The notes under the pieces: generated by a model
Told to the model about the DNA's origin: nothing
Databases searched by the model: none
Seen by the model: the letters and a program-made list of their open reading frames with translations, nothing else
IMG/VR virus record: IMGVR_UViG_3300025102_000033
Coordinates: 1 to 55,848 of that record
Strand: one strand, 5' to 3'
DNA length: 55,848 bases
Origin: a virus
Shown here: positions 6,245-15,767 of the stretch, one piece after another
Numbering within the stretch: the stretch's first letter is position 1
How the letters are laid out: each line of letters starts with the position of its first letter
Translations under genes and position numbers: made by a program

Positions 6245-6484
6245 ATGAAGAGTATTCTACGTATATGGAAGTATTCATTAGGGTCGTTCTCTGATGGTAA
6301 GACTGAACCATATGATAACTGGATTGCTATTATTAGAAGTATTATCTTTGTCTCTTATATGGTGACGAATGCCTTTATTGTGTCCGGAGTCATTAGACAT
6401 TGGGACACTTCGCGTCCCGCACCCCTTCGGGATTGGAATTCGAGTGATTGTGTATCCGTTGATACAGAATTAATTAAAAAATAG
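6245..6484 (+). CDS. Small membrane protein, 79 aa
   Basis: The N-terminal basic segment WKYSLGSFSDGKTEPYDNW is followed by one hydrophobic helix (about residues 28-50, IIRSIIFVSYMVTNAFIVSG). It looks like a family of cyanophage membrane proteins that, as I remember them, end soon after this helix. Here the frame runs on through a GC-rich hairpin region (6402-6432) into a tail with no recognisable content. The C-terminal about 25 residues may therefore be new. Function unknown. Confidence 0.65.
   Translation: MKSILRIWKYSLGSFSDGKTEPYDNWIAIIRSIIFVSYMVTNAFIVSGVIRHWDTSRPAPLRDWNSSDCVSVDTELIKK
6402..6432 (+). other. Two overlapping alternative hairpins
   Basis: GGGAC (6402-6406) can pair with GTCCC (6414-6418). 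Alternatively TCCCG (6415-6419) can pair with CGGGA (6428-6432). The stems share bases and exclude each other. The patch is GC-rich in AT-rich DNA and lies in the 3' end of the membrane protein gene. There is no U-run, so it is not a clear terminator. Confidence 0.4.
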
Positions 6485-6498
6485 GTTTTAAATATGTT

Positions 6499-6506
6499 TA
6501 TAAATA
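6499..6506 (+). promoter_or_regulatory. T4-type late promoter match without a nearby gene
   Basis: Exact TATAAATA. The first downstream ORF of any length on the + strand starts at 6867, so a transcript from here would have a leader of about 350 nt or be non-coding. Confidence 0.5.
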
Positions 6507-6546
6507 TAAAACTCTTTTTTATTTGAATTGTTAAATCTTTTGGTTT

Positions 6547-6612
6547 GTGGTGTCTTGAGAGGGTATTCGGAGTGTCTTTGTAGATACTTTGGAGTGTCTT
6601 TAAGTATCTCAT
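6547..6612 (+). repeat. 22-bp tandem repeat, three imperfect units
   Basis: GTGTCTT occurs at 6550, 6572 and 6594, spaced exactly 22 nt, about two helical turns. Units 2 and 3 share GGAGTGTCTTT; unit 1 is more diverged. The phasing suggests protein binding to one DNA face, iteron- or operator-like. Confidence 0.55.
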
Positions 6613-6662
6613 AAAGGTCAGATCTTATGTTCTTTTAATCTTATAAAGGGTCAGATCTTATG
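6611..6662 (+). repeat. Direct repeat around an AGATCT palindrome, two copies
   Basis: ATAAAGGTCAGATCTTATG at 6611-6629 and ATAAAGGGTCAGATCTTATG at 6643-6662 differ only by one inserted G and are 32 nt apart. Each contains the palindrome AGATCT. Role unknown. Confidence 0.6.
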
Positions 6663-6763
6663 CAAGTTTAGCGAGCGTATCATGGAGAGCGCGGTTTGTC
6701 AACCCACAGGGCGCAAAATTTTTCTCGACGAGATACAAAATGTAATATAAAGACATCTTATAG

Positions 6764-6771
6764 TATAAATA
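6764..6771 (+). promoter_or_regulatory. T4-type late promoter match
   Basis: Exact TATAAATA inside the inverted-repeat cluster, about 95 nt upstream of the ORF at 6867. It could give late expression of the small genes that otherwise follow the sigma-70 promoter. Confidence 0.45.
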
Positions 6772-6805
6772 TATTGATTCGATGAATCTCGACGAGACAT
6801 CATAC

Positions 6806-6834
6806 TTGACACTCGACGAGATATCTGTTATACT
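6806..6834 (+). promoter_or_regulatory. Near-consensus sigma-70 promoter with embedded operator-like repeat
   Basis: TTGACA (6806-6811), 17-bp spacer, TATACT (6829-6834). The spacer contains CTCGACGAGA (6812-6821). This should be a strong host-polymerase early promoter. It drives the small-gene block starting at 6867, and a repressor binding the embedded dyad would block it. Confidence 0.75.
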
Positions 6835-6866
6835 CATATCATAATCATCCAATCTCGACGAGAACC

Positions 6867-7037
6867 ATGAACGATTACGAAACATCATACATATGGGACT
6901 ACGAGATGTCATGCCATGATTATCTCGACGAGACATATGCATATCATAATGTGTCACCATACACATATGATCTAGACGACGAGTATGCACGAGATAGCAC
7001 AGACTATCAGGCACTTGCATACAGACATTATGCATGA
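6867..7037 (+). CDS. Tyrosine-rich acidic small protein, 56 aa
   Basis: ATG 6867 is about 25 nt downstream of the expected start of the 6806-6834 promoter. The product starts MNDYETSYIWDYEMSCHDYL and contains DLDDEYARD and DYQALAYRHYA. About ten Tyr and many Asp/Glu make it highly acidic. One CTCGACGAGA repeat encodes its LDE at residues 20-22. No family recognised. The frame could be fortuitous, but its place directly after a strong promoter and before a recognised gene supports it. Confidence 0.45.
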   Translation: MNDYETSYIWDYEMSCHDYLDETYAYHNVSPYTYDLDDEYARDSTDYQALAYRHYA

Positions 7038-7067
7038 TACAATACGTAAACATCGCACGAGATTCCC

Positions 7068-7220
7068 ATGTATGCACACAAGCGCATTGTAAGTGTAACA
7101 TTAGACATCGAATGTTATGAAGACCTCGACCTCAAGATGCTGGATTGGCGAGAAATCCTAGATCTTCAAGGTGACGAGAACGTCGATGTTAGCATCAAGG
7201 AGACTGCAGACGTATACTAG
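7068..7220 (+). CDS. Small conserved cyanophage protein, 50 aa
   Basis: It starts MYAHKRIVSVTLDIECYEDL, continues LKMLDWREILDLQGDENVDV and ends in IKETADVY. I recall closely similar short proteins in T4-like cyanophages; function unknown. It looks like a small beta-alpha fold with an acidic surface. It is probably transcribed from the 6806-6834 promoter. Its stop abuts the next GTGTGCCAG...CCACTAA promoter module. Confidence 0.75.
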   Translation: MYAHKRIVSVTLDIECYEDLDLKMLDWREILDLQGDENVDVSIKETADVY

Positions 7221-7278
7221 TGTGCCAGTTCGGAAACTGTCCACTAAATCCCCATGGGGGTCCAAAATCGTGTATTGT
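7221..7278 (+). promoter_or_regulatory. CCACTAA-type promoter module
   Basis: GTGTGCCAG..., then CCACTAA (7241-7247), then 25 nt to TATTGT (7273-7278), 29 nt before the ATG at 7308. CAGTT (7227-7231) and AACTG (7235-7239) form a small inverted repeat just before CCACTAA. There is no TTGACA-like -35. Confidence 0.55.
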
Positions 7279-7307
7279 AGTTTCAGTTGAGAAATTTGTT
7301 TTCTTAA

Positions 7308-7484
7308 ATGAACACTTTCGTCCCTAATCCTCATCTGGAAATGTTAATGAGTCGTGAGCAGTTAATGGAAGATATTGACTGCATTGTTGATGGTGAACTT
7401 AGTGGCATTATTTCTCAGGAATTGAGTGATGAATTGGTGCGGCGTCTATGTGATGCAGTCTGCCGCAATTTCCCTGCTAAGTAA
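7308..7484 (+). CDS. Small conserved cyanophage protein, 58 aa
   Basis: The product contains MSREQLMEDIDCIVDGELSG and then ISQELSDELVRRLCDAVCRN, a largely helical small protein. I recognise it as a recurrent cyanophage early family without known function. The three Cys are spaced for possible metal or disulfide use but form no clear motif. The gene sits alone between two promoter modules of the same type. Confidence 0.75.
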   Translation: MNTFVPNPHLEMLMSREQLMEDIDCIVDGELSGIISQELSDELVRRLCDAVCRNFPAK

Positions 7485-7488
7485 CAAG

Positions 7489-7550
7489 AATGTGTGCCAG
7501 TCGTAGAGGTGTCCACTAATCTCCCCACTGGCACCAAAATCGTGTATTGT
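7489..7550 (+). promoter_or_regulatory. CCACTAA-type promoter module
   Basis: GTGTGCCAGT..., CCACTAA (7513-7519), 25 nt, TATTGT (7545-7550), 23 nt before the ATG at 7574. The segment AAAATCGTGTATTGTA is identical to the module at 7221-7278. Confidence 0.55.
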
Positions 7551-7573
7551 ATTACAAGTTGAGAAATTCACTC

Positions 7574-7708
7574 ATGTTTGATGAACTTTGGTCTGAAATC
7601 GCTGATGCTCCCGGTGAGATCTTCGATGTGATTGAATACAAAGAAGAATGGGAGAAAGAAGATAAATTCGATGTTGAAGAGTACATTAAAGGAAACACCG
7701 ACTACTGA
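7574..7708 (+). CDS. Small acidic protein, 44 aa
   Basis: It starts MFDELWSEIADAPGEIFDVI and continues with YKEEWEKEDKFDVEEYIKGN. The charge is strongly negative with an amphipathic helical pattern. No family identified. It follows a CCACTAA promoter module and leads a run of three tightly spaced genes (next ATG 5 nt after its stop). Confidence 0.6.
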   Translation: MFDELWSEIADAPGEIFDVIEYKEEWEKEDKFDVEEYIKGNTDY

Positions 7709-7713
7709 AAACA

Positions 7714-7872
7714 ATGAACGAACAACTGCAATCTCAGGCAATTGAAGTGATGGAACTGATTGAAGATTCCGTCGAACATATTTGCACTGAAAACCTCCTA
7801 AGTGGAGAGAAAGTGTGGACAATGATTGCTGCACTTGCTGATGCCAAACTTGAAGAATTTCCTGAAAACTAA
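7714..7872 (+). CDS. Small helical protein, 52 aa
   Basis: It starts MNEQLQSQAIEVMELIEDSV and ends in MIAALADAKLEEFPEN. It is predicted all-helical and acidic. Its TAA overlaps the ATG of the next gene (TAATG), which indicates coupled translation. Function unknown. Confidence 0.65.
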   Translation: MNEQLQSQAIEVMELIEDSVEHICTENLLSGEKVWTMIAALADAKLEEFPEN

Positions 7873-8108
7873 TGTCTTTCGTTTCCACCTTCGTTGACAC
7901 AAACTCCATGACTGATAACATCATCGACCGTGACAATCTGCAGGATGCTTATATCAGAGCACTGATTGATGGAATGGATTTTAAAACAATGGAAGCATTC
8001 GTTTATGACACAATCAATGAGAATCTTGAGAGTTATTCTATGAAAGAACTGATTGAGGAAGTTGAGAACTATGACCCCGAACTTCTGGAGGAAAGTAACA
8101 CAAACTGA
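7872..8108 (+). CDS. Small acidic hypothetical protein, 78 aa
   Basis: Coupled to the preceding gene by a 1-nt overlap. The sequence is helical with a repeated acidic pattern (TINENLESYSMKELIEEVEN, then DPELLEESN). No motif recognised. An early cyanophage protein by position. Confidence 0.7.
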   Translation: MSFVSTFVDTNSMTDNIIDRDNLQDAYIRALIDGMDFKTMEAFVYDTINENLESYSMKELIEEVENYDPELLEESNTN

Positions 8109-8147
8109 TCGGCCGCCCGTGGACGGTTGGATAGGTGGCACACATTT

Positions 8148-8176
8148 TTGGCACAGGGTCGGAAACCGTGTATTGT
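8148..8176 (+). promoter_or_regulatory. Sigma-70-type promoter TTGGCA-17-TATTGT
   Basis: TTGGCA (8148-8153), spacer 17, TATTGT (8171-8176). The upstream CACATTTTTGGCACAG is shared with the promoter at 8608-8636. The ATG at 8183 is only 6 nt after the -10, so that transcript would be nearly leaderless unless a later ATG is used. Confidence 0.65.
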
Positions 8177-8182
8177 AGATGC

Positions 8183-8416
8183 ATGAACAAAACCGACTCA
8201 ATGCACACCTACACCGACCCTTGCACCTATGCTCTGCAGGAGGACATGCGTCAACTAAAGGAAATGATTGCATCAGACCTCTCTCAGTACATGTGCGAAA
8301 TGATGCCTTCCATGAACGATTGCGTTGATTGGGTATGTGATCGTTTTGCAATTGATGCAACTGATGAACTGATTGATTTCGTTGCTGATTGTCACGATGA
8401 GTTCTTCGGTAACTAA
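8183..8416 (+). CDS. Small hypothetical protein, 77 aa, uncertain start
   Basis: The frame is open from 8135, but that segment is promoter DNA. Candidate starts are ATG 8183, ATG 8201 and ATG 8246 (the last with AGGAGG only 2 nt upstream). The core contains QLKEMIASDLSQYMCEMM and CVDWVCDRFAIDATDELIDF, and it ends CHDEFFGN. It is helical and acidic with five Cys. Function unknown. Confidence 0.65.
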   Translation: MNKTDSMHTYTDPCTYALQEDMRQLKEMIASDLSQYMCEMMPSMNDCVDWVCDRFAIDATDELIDFVADCHDEFFGN

Positions 8417-8451
8417 CACAAACCTCTCTGTCCTTAAGTAACACAAACATC

Positions 8452-8583
8452 ATGCGTATCTGTCTCTCTGCCATTGTCATCCTGCTGGGTGCGAATCTTC
8501 TCATTGATCTCCTGGATTCTGATATGGTGCAAATCATGCAGGAGCGTAACGAAACAATCCAGCGCAGCATAGACCGGATGTGA
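8452..8583 (+). CDS. Small single-pass membrane protein, 43 aa
   Basis: It starts MRICLSAIVILLGANLLIDL, a Lys/Arg-start hydrophobic helix that could be a membrane anchor. A charged helical tail follows (MQERNETIQRSIDRM). The layout of a short N-terminal anchor with a cytoplasmic tail fits a phage inner-membrane peptide, but the function is unknown. It lies between two small genes of the early block. Confidence 0.6.
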   Translation: MRICLSAIVILLGANLLIDLLDSDMVQIMQERNETIQRSIDRM

Positions 8584-8607
8584 CAGTCGGATTAGTGTCA
8601 CACATTT

Positions 8608-8636
8608 TTGGCACAGGTCTCAAAATGCCCTATTGT
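8608..8636 (+). promoter_or_regulatory. Sigma-70-type promoter TTGGCA-17-TATTGT
   Basis: TTGGCA (8608-8613), 17-nt spacer, TATTGT (8631-8636), 27 nt before the ATG at 8664. It shares CACATTTTTGGCACAG with the promoter at 8148, so the pair looks duplicated. Confidence 0.7.
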
Positions 8637-8663
8637 AAAAGAGTCAAAGGAATTCAACCAACC

Positions 8664-8990
8664 ATGCGTAAGATCGAAACCCAGATGAACGAAGCAATCA
8701 CCGATCGCACCGATTGGGGAAAGGACAACACAAGGGTTGAAACGATCGACGGAGTTTCGAAGGTCTTCCTCCACGGGCATCTCATTGCTGAGATCGACGA
8801 CAATGCCATCATCCTGCGTGATGGTGGATATCAGAGCAACACCACTAAGAGCAGACTCAACGCAATCCTAGCAGAGCACGGATACTCTGGCGAAAGCGTG
8901 TTTCAAAAGAACTGGACTTGGTTCGTCCGTCTCTGGACTGGCACCGACTTCACCACCACCGAATTCCGTTCGGGTATGCGACTGGCATAG
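8664..8990 (+). CDS. Conserved phage hypothetical protein, 108 aa
   Basis: It starts MRKIETQMNEAITDRTDWGK. The core is VFLHGHLIAEIDDNAIILRD, GGYQSNTTKSRLNAIL and VFQKNWTWFVR. The TTKSRLNAIL block is a recurrent motif in small cyanophage and other phage proteins whose role is unknown. ATG 8664 is chosen because the open frame upstream (from GTG 8580) is promoter sequence. Confidence 0.75.
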   Translation: MRKIETQMNEAITDRTDWGKDNTRVETIDGVSKVFLHGHLIAEIDDNAIILRDGGYQSNTTKSRLNAILAEHGYSGESVFQKNWTWFVRLWTGTDFTTTEFRSGMRLA

Positions 8991-10130: not shown

Positions 10131-10307
10131 ATGCAAAAAAATTCCGAGAAAATTTTTAGTGAAATAGAGGTCGATCCCGTAACCGGAGATTATCACATCA
10201 TAGTGCCAGAGATAATCTTAAATGAAATGCAATGGTACGAAGGCACCAAAATAAGATGGTTGGTGGACGGTAATGAGATTATTCTGACAGAAGAAAAGGA
10301 TTCTTGA
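10131..10307 (+). CDS. AbrB/MazE-like small DNA-binding protein, 58 aa
   Basis: The pattern EVDPVTGDYHIIVPEIILNE, then MQWYEGTKIRWLVDGNEIIL, reads like the swapped-hairpin AbrB/SpoVT fold: a central hydrophobic-V-P-x-x-(I/L)-L, a GT-x-I turn and a final strand. Similar short proteins occur in cyanophages. It could be a transcription regulator. Upstream (10070-10130) is AT-rich with TATATAAAAT but no clear promoter. Its stop codon lies within the TTGACA of the next promoter. Confidence 0.6.
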   Translation: MQKNSEKIFSEIEVDPVTGDYHIIVPEIILNEMQWYEGTKIRWLVDGNEIILTEEKDS

Positions 10308-13856: not shown

Positions 13857-15767
13857 ATGCCTTTTACTAAGTATACAAATCTAGACTTTGATCAGATAAA
13901 GTCATCCATCAAAGATTATCTCCGTGCAAATTCTAATTTCACTGACTTTGATTTTGAAGGATCTAACTTTTCTGTCTTAATAGACACGCTAGCATATAAC
14001 ACATATATCACAGCATTCAACTCAAATATGATTGTGAATGAATCCTTCTTGGATTCTGCAACTCTCAGAGAGAATGTTGTATCATTGGCAAGAAATATTG
14101 GTTATGTGCCTCGCTCTAGAACCTCTGCAAGGGCACAAATCTCATTTTCGGTACAAAGACCTGATGGAGATTCATCCGCGCAGGTGACCCTCAGTAGAGG
14201 TCTCGTATGTACCGGAACTAGTTCTAACAGCAATTTTGTATTTTCAATACCAGAGGATATTACCAGAAATTTTGTTGATGGAGTGGCAACGTTTGACAAC
14301 ATTGTAATCTATGAAGGAACGTATTTAACAAAGCAATTTTTATATGATGGATCTCTCGATCAAAAATTTATCCTCAATAACTCTTTTATAGACACTTCTA
14401 CTCTTAAAGTATACATTAAAAAAGAAAATGATAGTGGTATAGGAATTGAATATTCTTTGGTTGATAATATTGTTAATGTAAAATCAAATTCTCAAATTTA
14501 TCTTATACAGGAAGTACAAGATGAAAAGTATCAATTACTTTTTGGGGATGGATTAATTGGAAAAAAACTTGGAACTGATAGAAATTCTGATGGCAACATC
14601 ATAACGACAAATTATATCGTATCAAACGGTTCTGATGGCAACGGAGTTAGTAATTTTTCTCTTGCTGGAAGTTTTTTAACCTCTGATGGTAACAATATTA
14701 ATCCATCTACGATAGCAATCATTACAAATCAAAAATCTCAAAATGGATCTGAGATAGAATCGATTGATTCCGTTAGATATTTTGCTCCAAAAATATATTC
14801 TGCACAATCAAGAGCAGTTACTGGTCGTGATTATGAAGCAATTATCAAAATGATCTACCCAGACACCGAATCTGTGGCGGTTGTTGGTGGAGAAGAGATG
14901 GAACCACCACAATTTGGAACTGTAAACATCAGTATAAAACCAAAAAATGGAACTTTTGTCTCAGATTTTAATAAATCTAGAATTTTATCACAATTAAAAC
15001 AATATACAGTCTCTGGAATCAATCAAAAAATTACAGATTTGAAAATTCTCTATGTTGAAATTGATTCTTCCGTTTATTATGACTATTCTCGAATATCAAC
15101 TGTCGAGACACTCAAAACAAATGTTCTTAATTCTTTAAATGAGTATTCGAACTCAGTGGATATTAATAAATTTGGTGGTAGATTCAAATATAGTAAAATT
15201 CAACAAATTATTGACAACACAAATACAGCAATAACTTCAAATATCACCAAAGTAAAAATTAGAAGGGATTTAAAGGCAGTAATAAATCAATTTGCCCAGT
15301 ATGAACTATGTTATGGAAACAGATTTCATGTAAATAGTGGTGGATATAATATTAAATCAACCGGTTTTAGAATTGCAAATGATTCCGATGTGGTTTATTT
15401 GACAGATATTCCCAATCTTGACGGAAGAACGGGAGTTTTATCAATTGTGAAACCACTCGATAGTCAAAATATAAAAGTTGTTGTAAAATCCGCAGGAACA
15501 ATTGATTATATGAAAGGTGAGATAAATCTTAATACAATAAAAATTGTTTCGACGGAACTTCAAAATAACATTATTGAAGTTCAGGCATTTCCAGAGTCAA
15601 ATGATGTAGTTGGACTTAAAGATTTGTATCTTAATTTTAACGTCTCTACAAGTGCAATAAATATGGTGAAGGATGTTATTGCATCAGGAGATGAAATATC
15701 GGGAACGGTATTCAATAGAGATTTTTACACATCAAGTTATCTAAACGGAAATTTAATAAGAGAGTAA
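13857..15767 (+). CDS. gp6: gp6 baseplate wedge protein
   Basis: 636 aa, close to T4 gp6 (660 aa); J-like family of baseplate proteins that build the wedge ring. The N terminus (DQIKSSIKDYLRANSNFTDF, then NFSVLIDTLAYNTYITAFNS and ANIGYVPRS-type segments) is the classical gp6 head. The region around 14800 (RYFAPKIYSAQSRAVTGRDY) is the conserved core of J-like domains. It is followed after 1 nt by the giant gene. Late-expressed from the promoter at 13428. Confidence 0.93.
   Translation: MPFTKYTNLDFDQIKSSIKDYLRANSNFTDFDFEGSNFSVLIDTLAYNTYITAFNSNMIVNESFLDSATLRENVVSLARNIGYVPRSRTSARAQISFSVQRPDGDSSAQVTLSRGLVCTGTSSNSNFVFSIPEDITRNFVDGVATFDNIVIYEGTYLTKQFLYDGSLDQKFILNNSFIDTSTLKVYIKKENDSGIGIEYSLVDNIVNVKSNSQIYLIQEVQDEKYQLLFGDGLIGKKLGTDRNSDGNIITTNYIVSNGSDGNGVSNFSLAGSFLTSDGNNINPSTIAIITNQKSQNGSEIESIDSVRYFAPKIYSAQSRAVTGRDYEAIIKMIYPDTESVAVVGGEEMEPPQFGTVNISIKPKNGTFVSDFNKSRILSQLKQYTVSGINQKITDLKILYVEIDSSVYYDYSRISTVETLKTNVLNSLNEYSNSVDINKFGGRFKYSKIQQIIDNTNTAITSNITKVKIRRDLKAVINQFAQYELCYGNRFHVNSGGYNIKSTGFRIANDSDVVYLTDIPNLDGRTGVLSIVKPLDSQNIKVVVKSAGTIDYMKGEINLNTIKIVSTELQNNIIEVQAFPESNDVVGLKDLYLNFNVSTSAINMVKDVIASGDEISGTVFNRDFYTSSYLNGNLIRE

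Follow-up and report, generated by a model that had tools for sequence, protein, structure and literature searches.

A conserved array of palindromic sites over a small-gene promoter in T4-like cyanophages, a candidate repressor operator

Results

The window, that is, the whole stretch of 55,848 bp that was analyzed, is a fragment of a T4-like cyanophage, a virus of marine cyanobacteria, with structural genes from ~13.4 kb onward. Four exact copies of TCTCGACGAGA and one near copy with one mismatch, ACTCGACGAGA, span positions 6723 to 6933 (Table 1), and neither exact nor one-mismatch copies were found elsewhere in the window. An earlier note on this DNA had counted five inverted repeats; all five sites are present, but only four are exact. 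Its placement of the copies upstream of, inside, and just downstream of a promoter and within the first open reading frame (ORF) was correct throughout, including the near copy at 6811 that fills the spacer of TTGACA-17-TATACT. This promoter (6806 to 6834) was the top sigma-70-like match within 6400 to 8700 (11/12). The caution that the motif count might equal chance did not hold, as 4 exact copies were observed versus 0.0046 expected from dinucleotide composition (plus strand, whole window).

Table 1. Positions of the dyads, half-sites, promoter elements, and genes in the window
Feature	Positions	Strand	Remarks
Dyad 1, TCTCGACGAGA	6723..6733	.	Upstream operator-like site; center 101 bp 5' of the -10 hexamer
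Dyad 2, TCTCGACGAGA	6787..6797	.	Just 5' of the -35 hexamer; center at -37 from the -10 hexamer
-35 hexamer, TTGACA	6806..6811	+	Sigma-70-like match
Dyad 3, ACTCGACGAGA	6811..6821	.	One mismatch; in the promoter spacer
Promoter spacer	6812-6828		17 bp
-10 hexamer, TATACT	6829..6834	+	TG directly before
Dyad 4, TCTCGACGAGA	6853..6863	.	5' leader; ends three bases before the ORF1 ATG
ORF1	6867..7037	+	56-aa acidic small protein rich in Tyr, Asp, and Glu; end LAYRHYA
Half-site CGAGAT	6902..6907	+	Inside ORF1
Dyad 5, TCTCGACGAGA	6923..6933	.	Within ORF1, in frame, codes Leu-Asp-Glu; nucleotides kept in relatives
Half-site CGAGAT	6990..6995	+	Inside ORF1, codons of conserved ARD
Half-site CGAGAT	7058..7063	+	Immediately 5' of ORF2
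ORF2	7068..7220	+	Conserved gene downstream of ORF1; 50-aa product of unknown function (phrog_12516)
AbrB/MazE-like protein	10131..10307	+	phrog_661; candidate regulator

The reading frame and C terminus of ORF1 are kept in relatives. Across ~170 loci, the ORF1 protein is ~40% Asp plus Tyr, has a mean net charge of -13.7, and ends in a conserved LAY[RK]HYA; it matched no family in Pfam or PHROG and is possibly a nucleic acid mimic. ORF2 was considered as a regulator and rejected, its model being almost without regular secondary structure and having no match in the PDB. An intercistronic repeat (tgtgccagt..gtccact..ggcaccaaaatcgTGTATTGTA) at 7222 to 7280, 7494 to 7552, and 8120 to 8178 (the third copy partial) stands before several of the small ORFs and may serve as a secondary promoter or form a hairpin that undergoes processing.

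A search of viral contigs recovered paired dyads in at least 120 stretches, against a chance expectation that we estimate from the size of the collection at ~1 or fewer. For a motif-independent set, relatives were fetched by their ORF2 protein, at least 400 bp of upstream sequence was required, and a dyad was scored as TCTMGWCKAGA. At least one dyad was present in 74 of these 76 loci, which as related loci are not independent of each other, and in 19 of 21 (320 bp upstream or ORF1) once near-duplicates had been removed. The two exceptions (L207 and L212) retain the promoter and ORF1 and carry only single ACGAGAT half-sites. The possibility, raised in the earlier note, that the dyads would not be conserved at the same promoter in related phages was thereby contradicted. 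Among 20 named phages, clusters were found in S-SKS1, S-SRM01, P-SSM2, and S-T4; the other 16, including S-PM2, Syn9, and P-SSM4, had no dyad cluster. P-SSM5 has a P-SSM2-type region with a cluster. The 252-kb genome of P-SSM2, in which ORF2 was not detectable, contains four exact sites, which all fall in a 140-bp stretch where PSSM2_098 has its promoter and start, and in complete genomes dyad copies are essentially limited to one to three clusters. These sequence comparisons show the dyads to be conserved in many T4-like cyanophages.

Site placement was assessed at 86 nonredundant promoters, and the resulting fractions are biased upwards because the motif itself had served to retrieve many of the loci. 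Dyad centers peaked 12 to 13 bp before the -10 hexamer, the position of dyad 3 in the window, and 52 of 86 promoters had a dyad within the spacer; further peaks were found at about -46, -78, and -110 from the -10 hexamer. The leader peak lay 7 to 12 nt before the ORF1 ATG (63 of 86 with a center 7 to 20 nt before it). Of the 22 loci that had been chosen independently of the motif, 10 had the spacer site. Dyad density was 11.4/kb in the DNA 5' of the -35 hexamer, which is presumably untranscribed. Adjacent sites were most often 31 to 33 bp apart (83 of 226 spacings) and next 40 to 43 bp (43 of 226), with no sharp 10.5-bp period; helical phasing is only suggestive because spacings of 23 to 24 and 35 to 36 bp also occur. 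The extended consensus of the site is AATCTCGWCGAGATT. The multisite operator geometry described in the earlier note was upheld, in that repeated palindromes overlap the core promoter and are kept at the same promoter in relatives.

Variant sites were mostly altered in one arm (TCTAGTCGAGA/TCTCGACTAGA, 73; TCTAGACGAGA/TCTCGTCTAGA, 25) and less often in both (15), and such one-sided half-site changes would fit two independent protein contacts. Dyads inside ORF1 were in frame and coded LDE in 71 of 73 cases. Overall, the LDE tripeptide of ORF1 was written CTCGACGAG in 104 of 129 cases, and in the motif-independent set in 16 of 17, versus 3.8% expected from ORF1 codon use. The ORF1-internal dyad is conserved as nucleotides.

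Single CGAGAT half-sites, which the earlier note had missed, also cluster at the dyad region (6902, 6990, and 7058). Outside dyads, their density in ORF1 was 13.0/kb on the coding strand versus 1.5/kb on the opposite strand, and in the gap between ORF1 and ORF2 it was 28.6/kb versus 0 (background, 0.09/kb). Given this coding-strand bias, the half-sites may also act at the RNA level or in an orientation-dependent way.

Motif-selected loci held 164 dyad clusters, at least 97 of them at ORF1. Others stand before a gene of the KAKNRF type (phrog_1653), before one of the INAIGFTI type, or before an ORF2 homologue unaccompanied by ORF1, so that a small regulon of early genes may exist.

Discussion

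We consider it probable (about 0.6) that the dyads form an array of operators at which a dimeric DNA-binding protein, probably encoded by the phage, represses the strong and presumably early promoter of ORF1. Observed directly were the sites themselves and where they lie, the fact that relatives keep them at the same promoter and, inside the gene, keep their nucleotides, and how scarce they are in the rest of the dyad-bearing genomes that were examined. A symmetric, dimeric protein would contact AATCTCGWCGAGATT through its two inverted CGAGAT half-sites. With the spacer site occupied, RNA polymerase would be barred from the strong promoter at 6806 to 6834; the upstream, leader, and ORF1-internal sites would add to occupancy through cooperative binding and stand in the way of elongation. 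A phage repressor would most likely shut the ORF1-ORF2 early operon once the first phase of infection is over, in the manner of Cro and Arc. It is from sequence that we infer binding by a protein, repression rather than activation, a phage-encoded binder, and the early timing. The dedicated switch over a small early-gene block from 6867, as the earlier note had put it, is likewise supported, with "early" and "switch" still presumptive. Some observations fit the operator less well: the coding-strand bias of the half-sites is not predicted by a simple symmetric operator, the helical phasing is only suggestive, P-SSM2 has the array without a detectable ORF2, and no clear DNA-binding protein is common to and confined to the dyad phages among the profiled genomes.

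This last result comes from a phylogenetic profile of four dyad-bearing versus four dyad-free genomes, which yielded no exclusive DNA-binding family, no helix-turn-helix family confined to dyad phages, and no clearly DNA-binding protein present in all dyad phages and only there. The KAKNRF and INAIGFTI genes beside other clusters had no DNA-binding family either. The sole candidate from the profile comparison, and a candidate only, is the AbrB/MazE-like protein at 10131. Its AlphaFold2 model (mean pLDDT, 86) has the swapped-hairpin AbrB fold and resembles MazE, SpoVT, AbrB, and VapB, all of them dimeric DNA binders; the best PDB matches (MazE, SpoVT, and AbrB) had probabilities of 0.97 to 1.0, with Foldseek E values of >0.05 for this very small protein. 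It is present in those dyad-bearing named phages that have enough sequence and, in most of ~48 distinct dyad loci, is found 2 to 7 kb downstream in the same orientation; its co-occurrence with dyads in the 20 named genomes reached a P value of ~0.01 without correction for ancestry, one or two of the genomes being uncertain. That it binds the dyad AATCTCGACGAGATT, which would be a specific form of the best explanation, is nevertheless doubtful. The protein is acidic (net charge, -6 to -13; pI, ~4.1 to 4.3), K3 is its only invariant basic residue, and the conserved basic residues for DNA contact were not found; its Pfam match is below the cutoff (E = 0.041), it also occurs in the dyad-free phages Sf-CH5, S-CAM7, and ACG-2014f, and the whole gene neighborhood travels together.

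A host transcription factor that binds the sites and is recruited or evaded by the phage appears rather unlikely. Dyad phages infect Prochlorococcus NATL1A, Synechococcus WH7803, and Synechococcus sp. KCZYC6, so a factor widely shared among picocyanobacterial hosts is possible, and that no dedicated phage factor was found also speaks for the host. Against it, among 84,980 species genomes searched, no cyanobacterial genome had two dyads 15 to 45 bp apart. Moreover, of the phages of WH7803, S-SKS1 and S-T4 have dyads whereas S-PM2 and S-SCSM1 do not, and the sites thus follow phage lineage. These two observations make a factor of the phage likelier than one of the host. The paired-dyad matches in genomes numbered 29, all noncyanobacterial and several GC rich or in repeats. 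Host arrays were discarded, as there were none in the cyanobacterial genomes searched. One of the 29 matches, a 3.9-kb contig of a Rhodobacteraceae MAG (L132), resembles the array of a viral locus (L013, ~1571 to 1629) and may itself be viral; in both, dyads are arranged head to tail with a 24-bp period (TCTCGACGAGATGATGTATGCGCG and similar).

Sites reaching upstream to -110 and clusters away from ORF1, one of them at a gene end in S-SRM01, would suit an activator, architectural, partition, or replication site in place of a repressor operator. We hold this to be unlikely: the mid-spacer position in a spacer of the normal 17 bp favors steric repression, and many clusters lie directly before small genes. 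The S-SRM01 gene-end cluster (90.9 to 91.0 kb; L201, ~6887 to 7007) consists of four dyads and adjoins an HNH endonuclease gene on the opposite strand, with no recognizable promoter after it.

Repeats of other sequence stand at the corresponding position in some dyad-free phages. At the promoter of the S-SCSM1 ORF2 homologue (L199 and L365, ~1039 to 1166), four TTCTSAGAA-like sites are found in similar geometry, one of them in the spacer of TTGACA-17-TATAAT; close relatives retain this spacer site, and most of the other repeats vary. In S-CAM7 (54.5 to 54.8 kb; L361, ~14540 to 14790) and its relatives (L430, L432, and L433), GCAGYATATA repeats lie upstream of the ORF2 homologue. As alternative operators, both are suggestive only, and a GGTNACC cluster in Sf-CH5 was discarded because it falls in a repetitive coding stretch. 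T4-like cyanophages are taken to be strictly lytic. With variants such as TCTCGWCGAGA, TTCTSAGAA-like sites (S-SCSM1), and GCAGYATA repeats (S-CAM7 and relatives), one could envisage a repressor-operator system of T4-like cyanophages whose operator sequence is lineage specific at one conserved promoter, by which a resident phage could silence a related incomer, i.e., heteroimmunity without lysogeny; this extension of the operator model is speculative and, in our estimate, improbable.

The coding-strand bias of nondyad half-sites in ORF1 and the ORF1-ORF2 gap, together with a site within a few bases 5' of the ORF1, ORF2, and KAKNRF-gene start codons, could also mean that the motif works in RNA, CGAGAU being the binding or cleavage site of a translational regulator at the ribosome-binding sites of small early genes. 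We give this little credence, as dyads are common upstream of the -35 hexamer and at mid-spacer in the promoter, the sites stay palindromic even though, as RNA, 11 nt with a single central base cannot fold back, and arm changes are mostly uncompensated. An Rfam search returned nothing credible. Finally, chance or a by-product of coding Asp-Leu-Asp-Glu peptides, with which the in-frame LDE of the ORF1-internal copies would agree, can be set aside on the composition (0.005 copies expected in the window), position (most copies are noncoding), and codon (LDE codon choice far off expectation) tests and the 74 of 76 ORF2-selected loci.

Among known systems, the proposed operator appears by analogy to work most like a phage early-promoter operator array. 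The lambda OR and OL regions are CI/Cro operators in which tandem palindromes overlap the early-promoter hexamers. The dyads share this arrangement and multiplicity but differ in sequence, in their spacing of ~32 bp, and in the presence of sites in the leader and gene; among ten proteins scanned around the promoter, Pfam and PHROG revealed no CI/Cro-type or helix-turn-helix family. The Arc protein of P22, which is of the ribbon-helix-helix type, has a single operator region at Pant. As with its operator, which serves shut-off, a site is centered between the -35 and -10 elements of a strong phage promoter; here, in contrast, there are several sites and no ribbon-helix-helix protein was identified. 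Cyanobacterial LexA sites are built on GTAC or GTWC half-sites. Like these repressor boxes, the dyads are palindromic sites at a promoter, but their half-sites are CGAGAT, and AATCTCGWCGAGATT does not match the LexA consensus. The earlier suggestion of a lambda-type or LexA-like array therefore fails at the level of sequence, since the consensus differs and no CI/Cro-type neighbor was found. The stoperators of L5 and other cluster A phages, which are temperate, are asymmetric 13-mers bound by a monomeric repressor and number >20 per genome (PMC9283540). Both systems have one short site in many copies, at promoters and elsewhere along the genome, and an orientation bias relative to transcription, here for single half-sites only. 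Unlike stoperators, however, the main site here is palindromic, not an asymmetric, consistently oriented, genome-wide site; its few copies sit in one to three clusters, and no known repressor gene or lysogeny goes with them. On the features tested, the array is a member of neither the Arc, the lambda OR/OL, nor the L5 stoperator class.

Sullivan et al. (2010) searched T4-like cyanophages for sigma-70, T4 late, and nutrient-related promoters (PMC3037559); a term search of that text gave no mention of a repressor or palindrome. No published description of the motif in a phage context, cyanophage promoter literature included, was found in the open-access literature, and the dyad looks like an undescribed docking site for a gene-switching protein.

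The passage from early to later expression in T4-like cyanophages is not well explained. A conserved, sequence-defined candidate operator in the cultured phages P-SSM2, S-SKS1, S-T4, and S-SRM01 offers a bait for a dedicated transcription regulator and opens the question to direct tests in laboratory strains, Synechococcus WH7803 for example. Should the array be bound by a phage repressor, it may also explain interference between co-infecting cyanophages.
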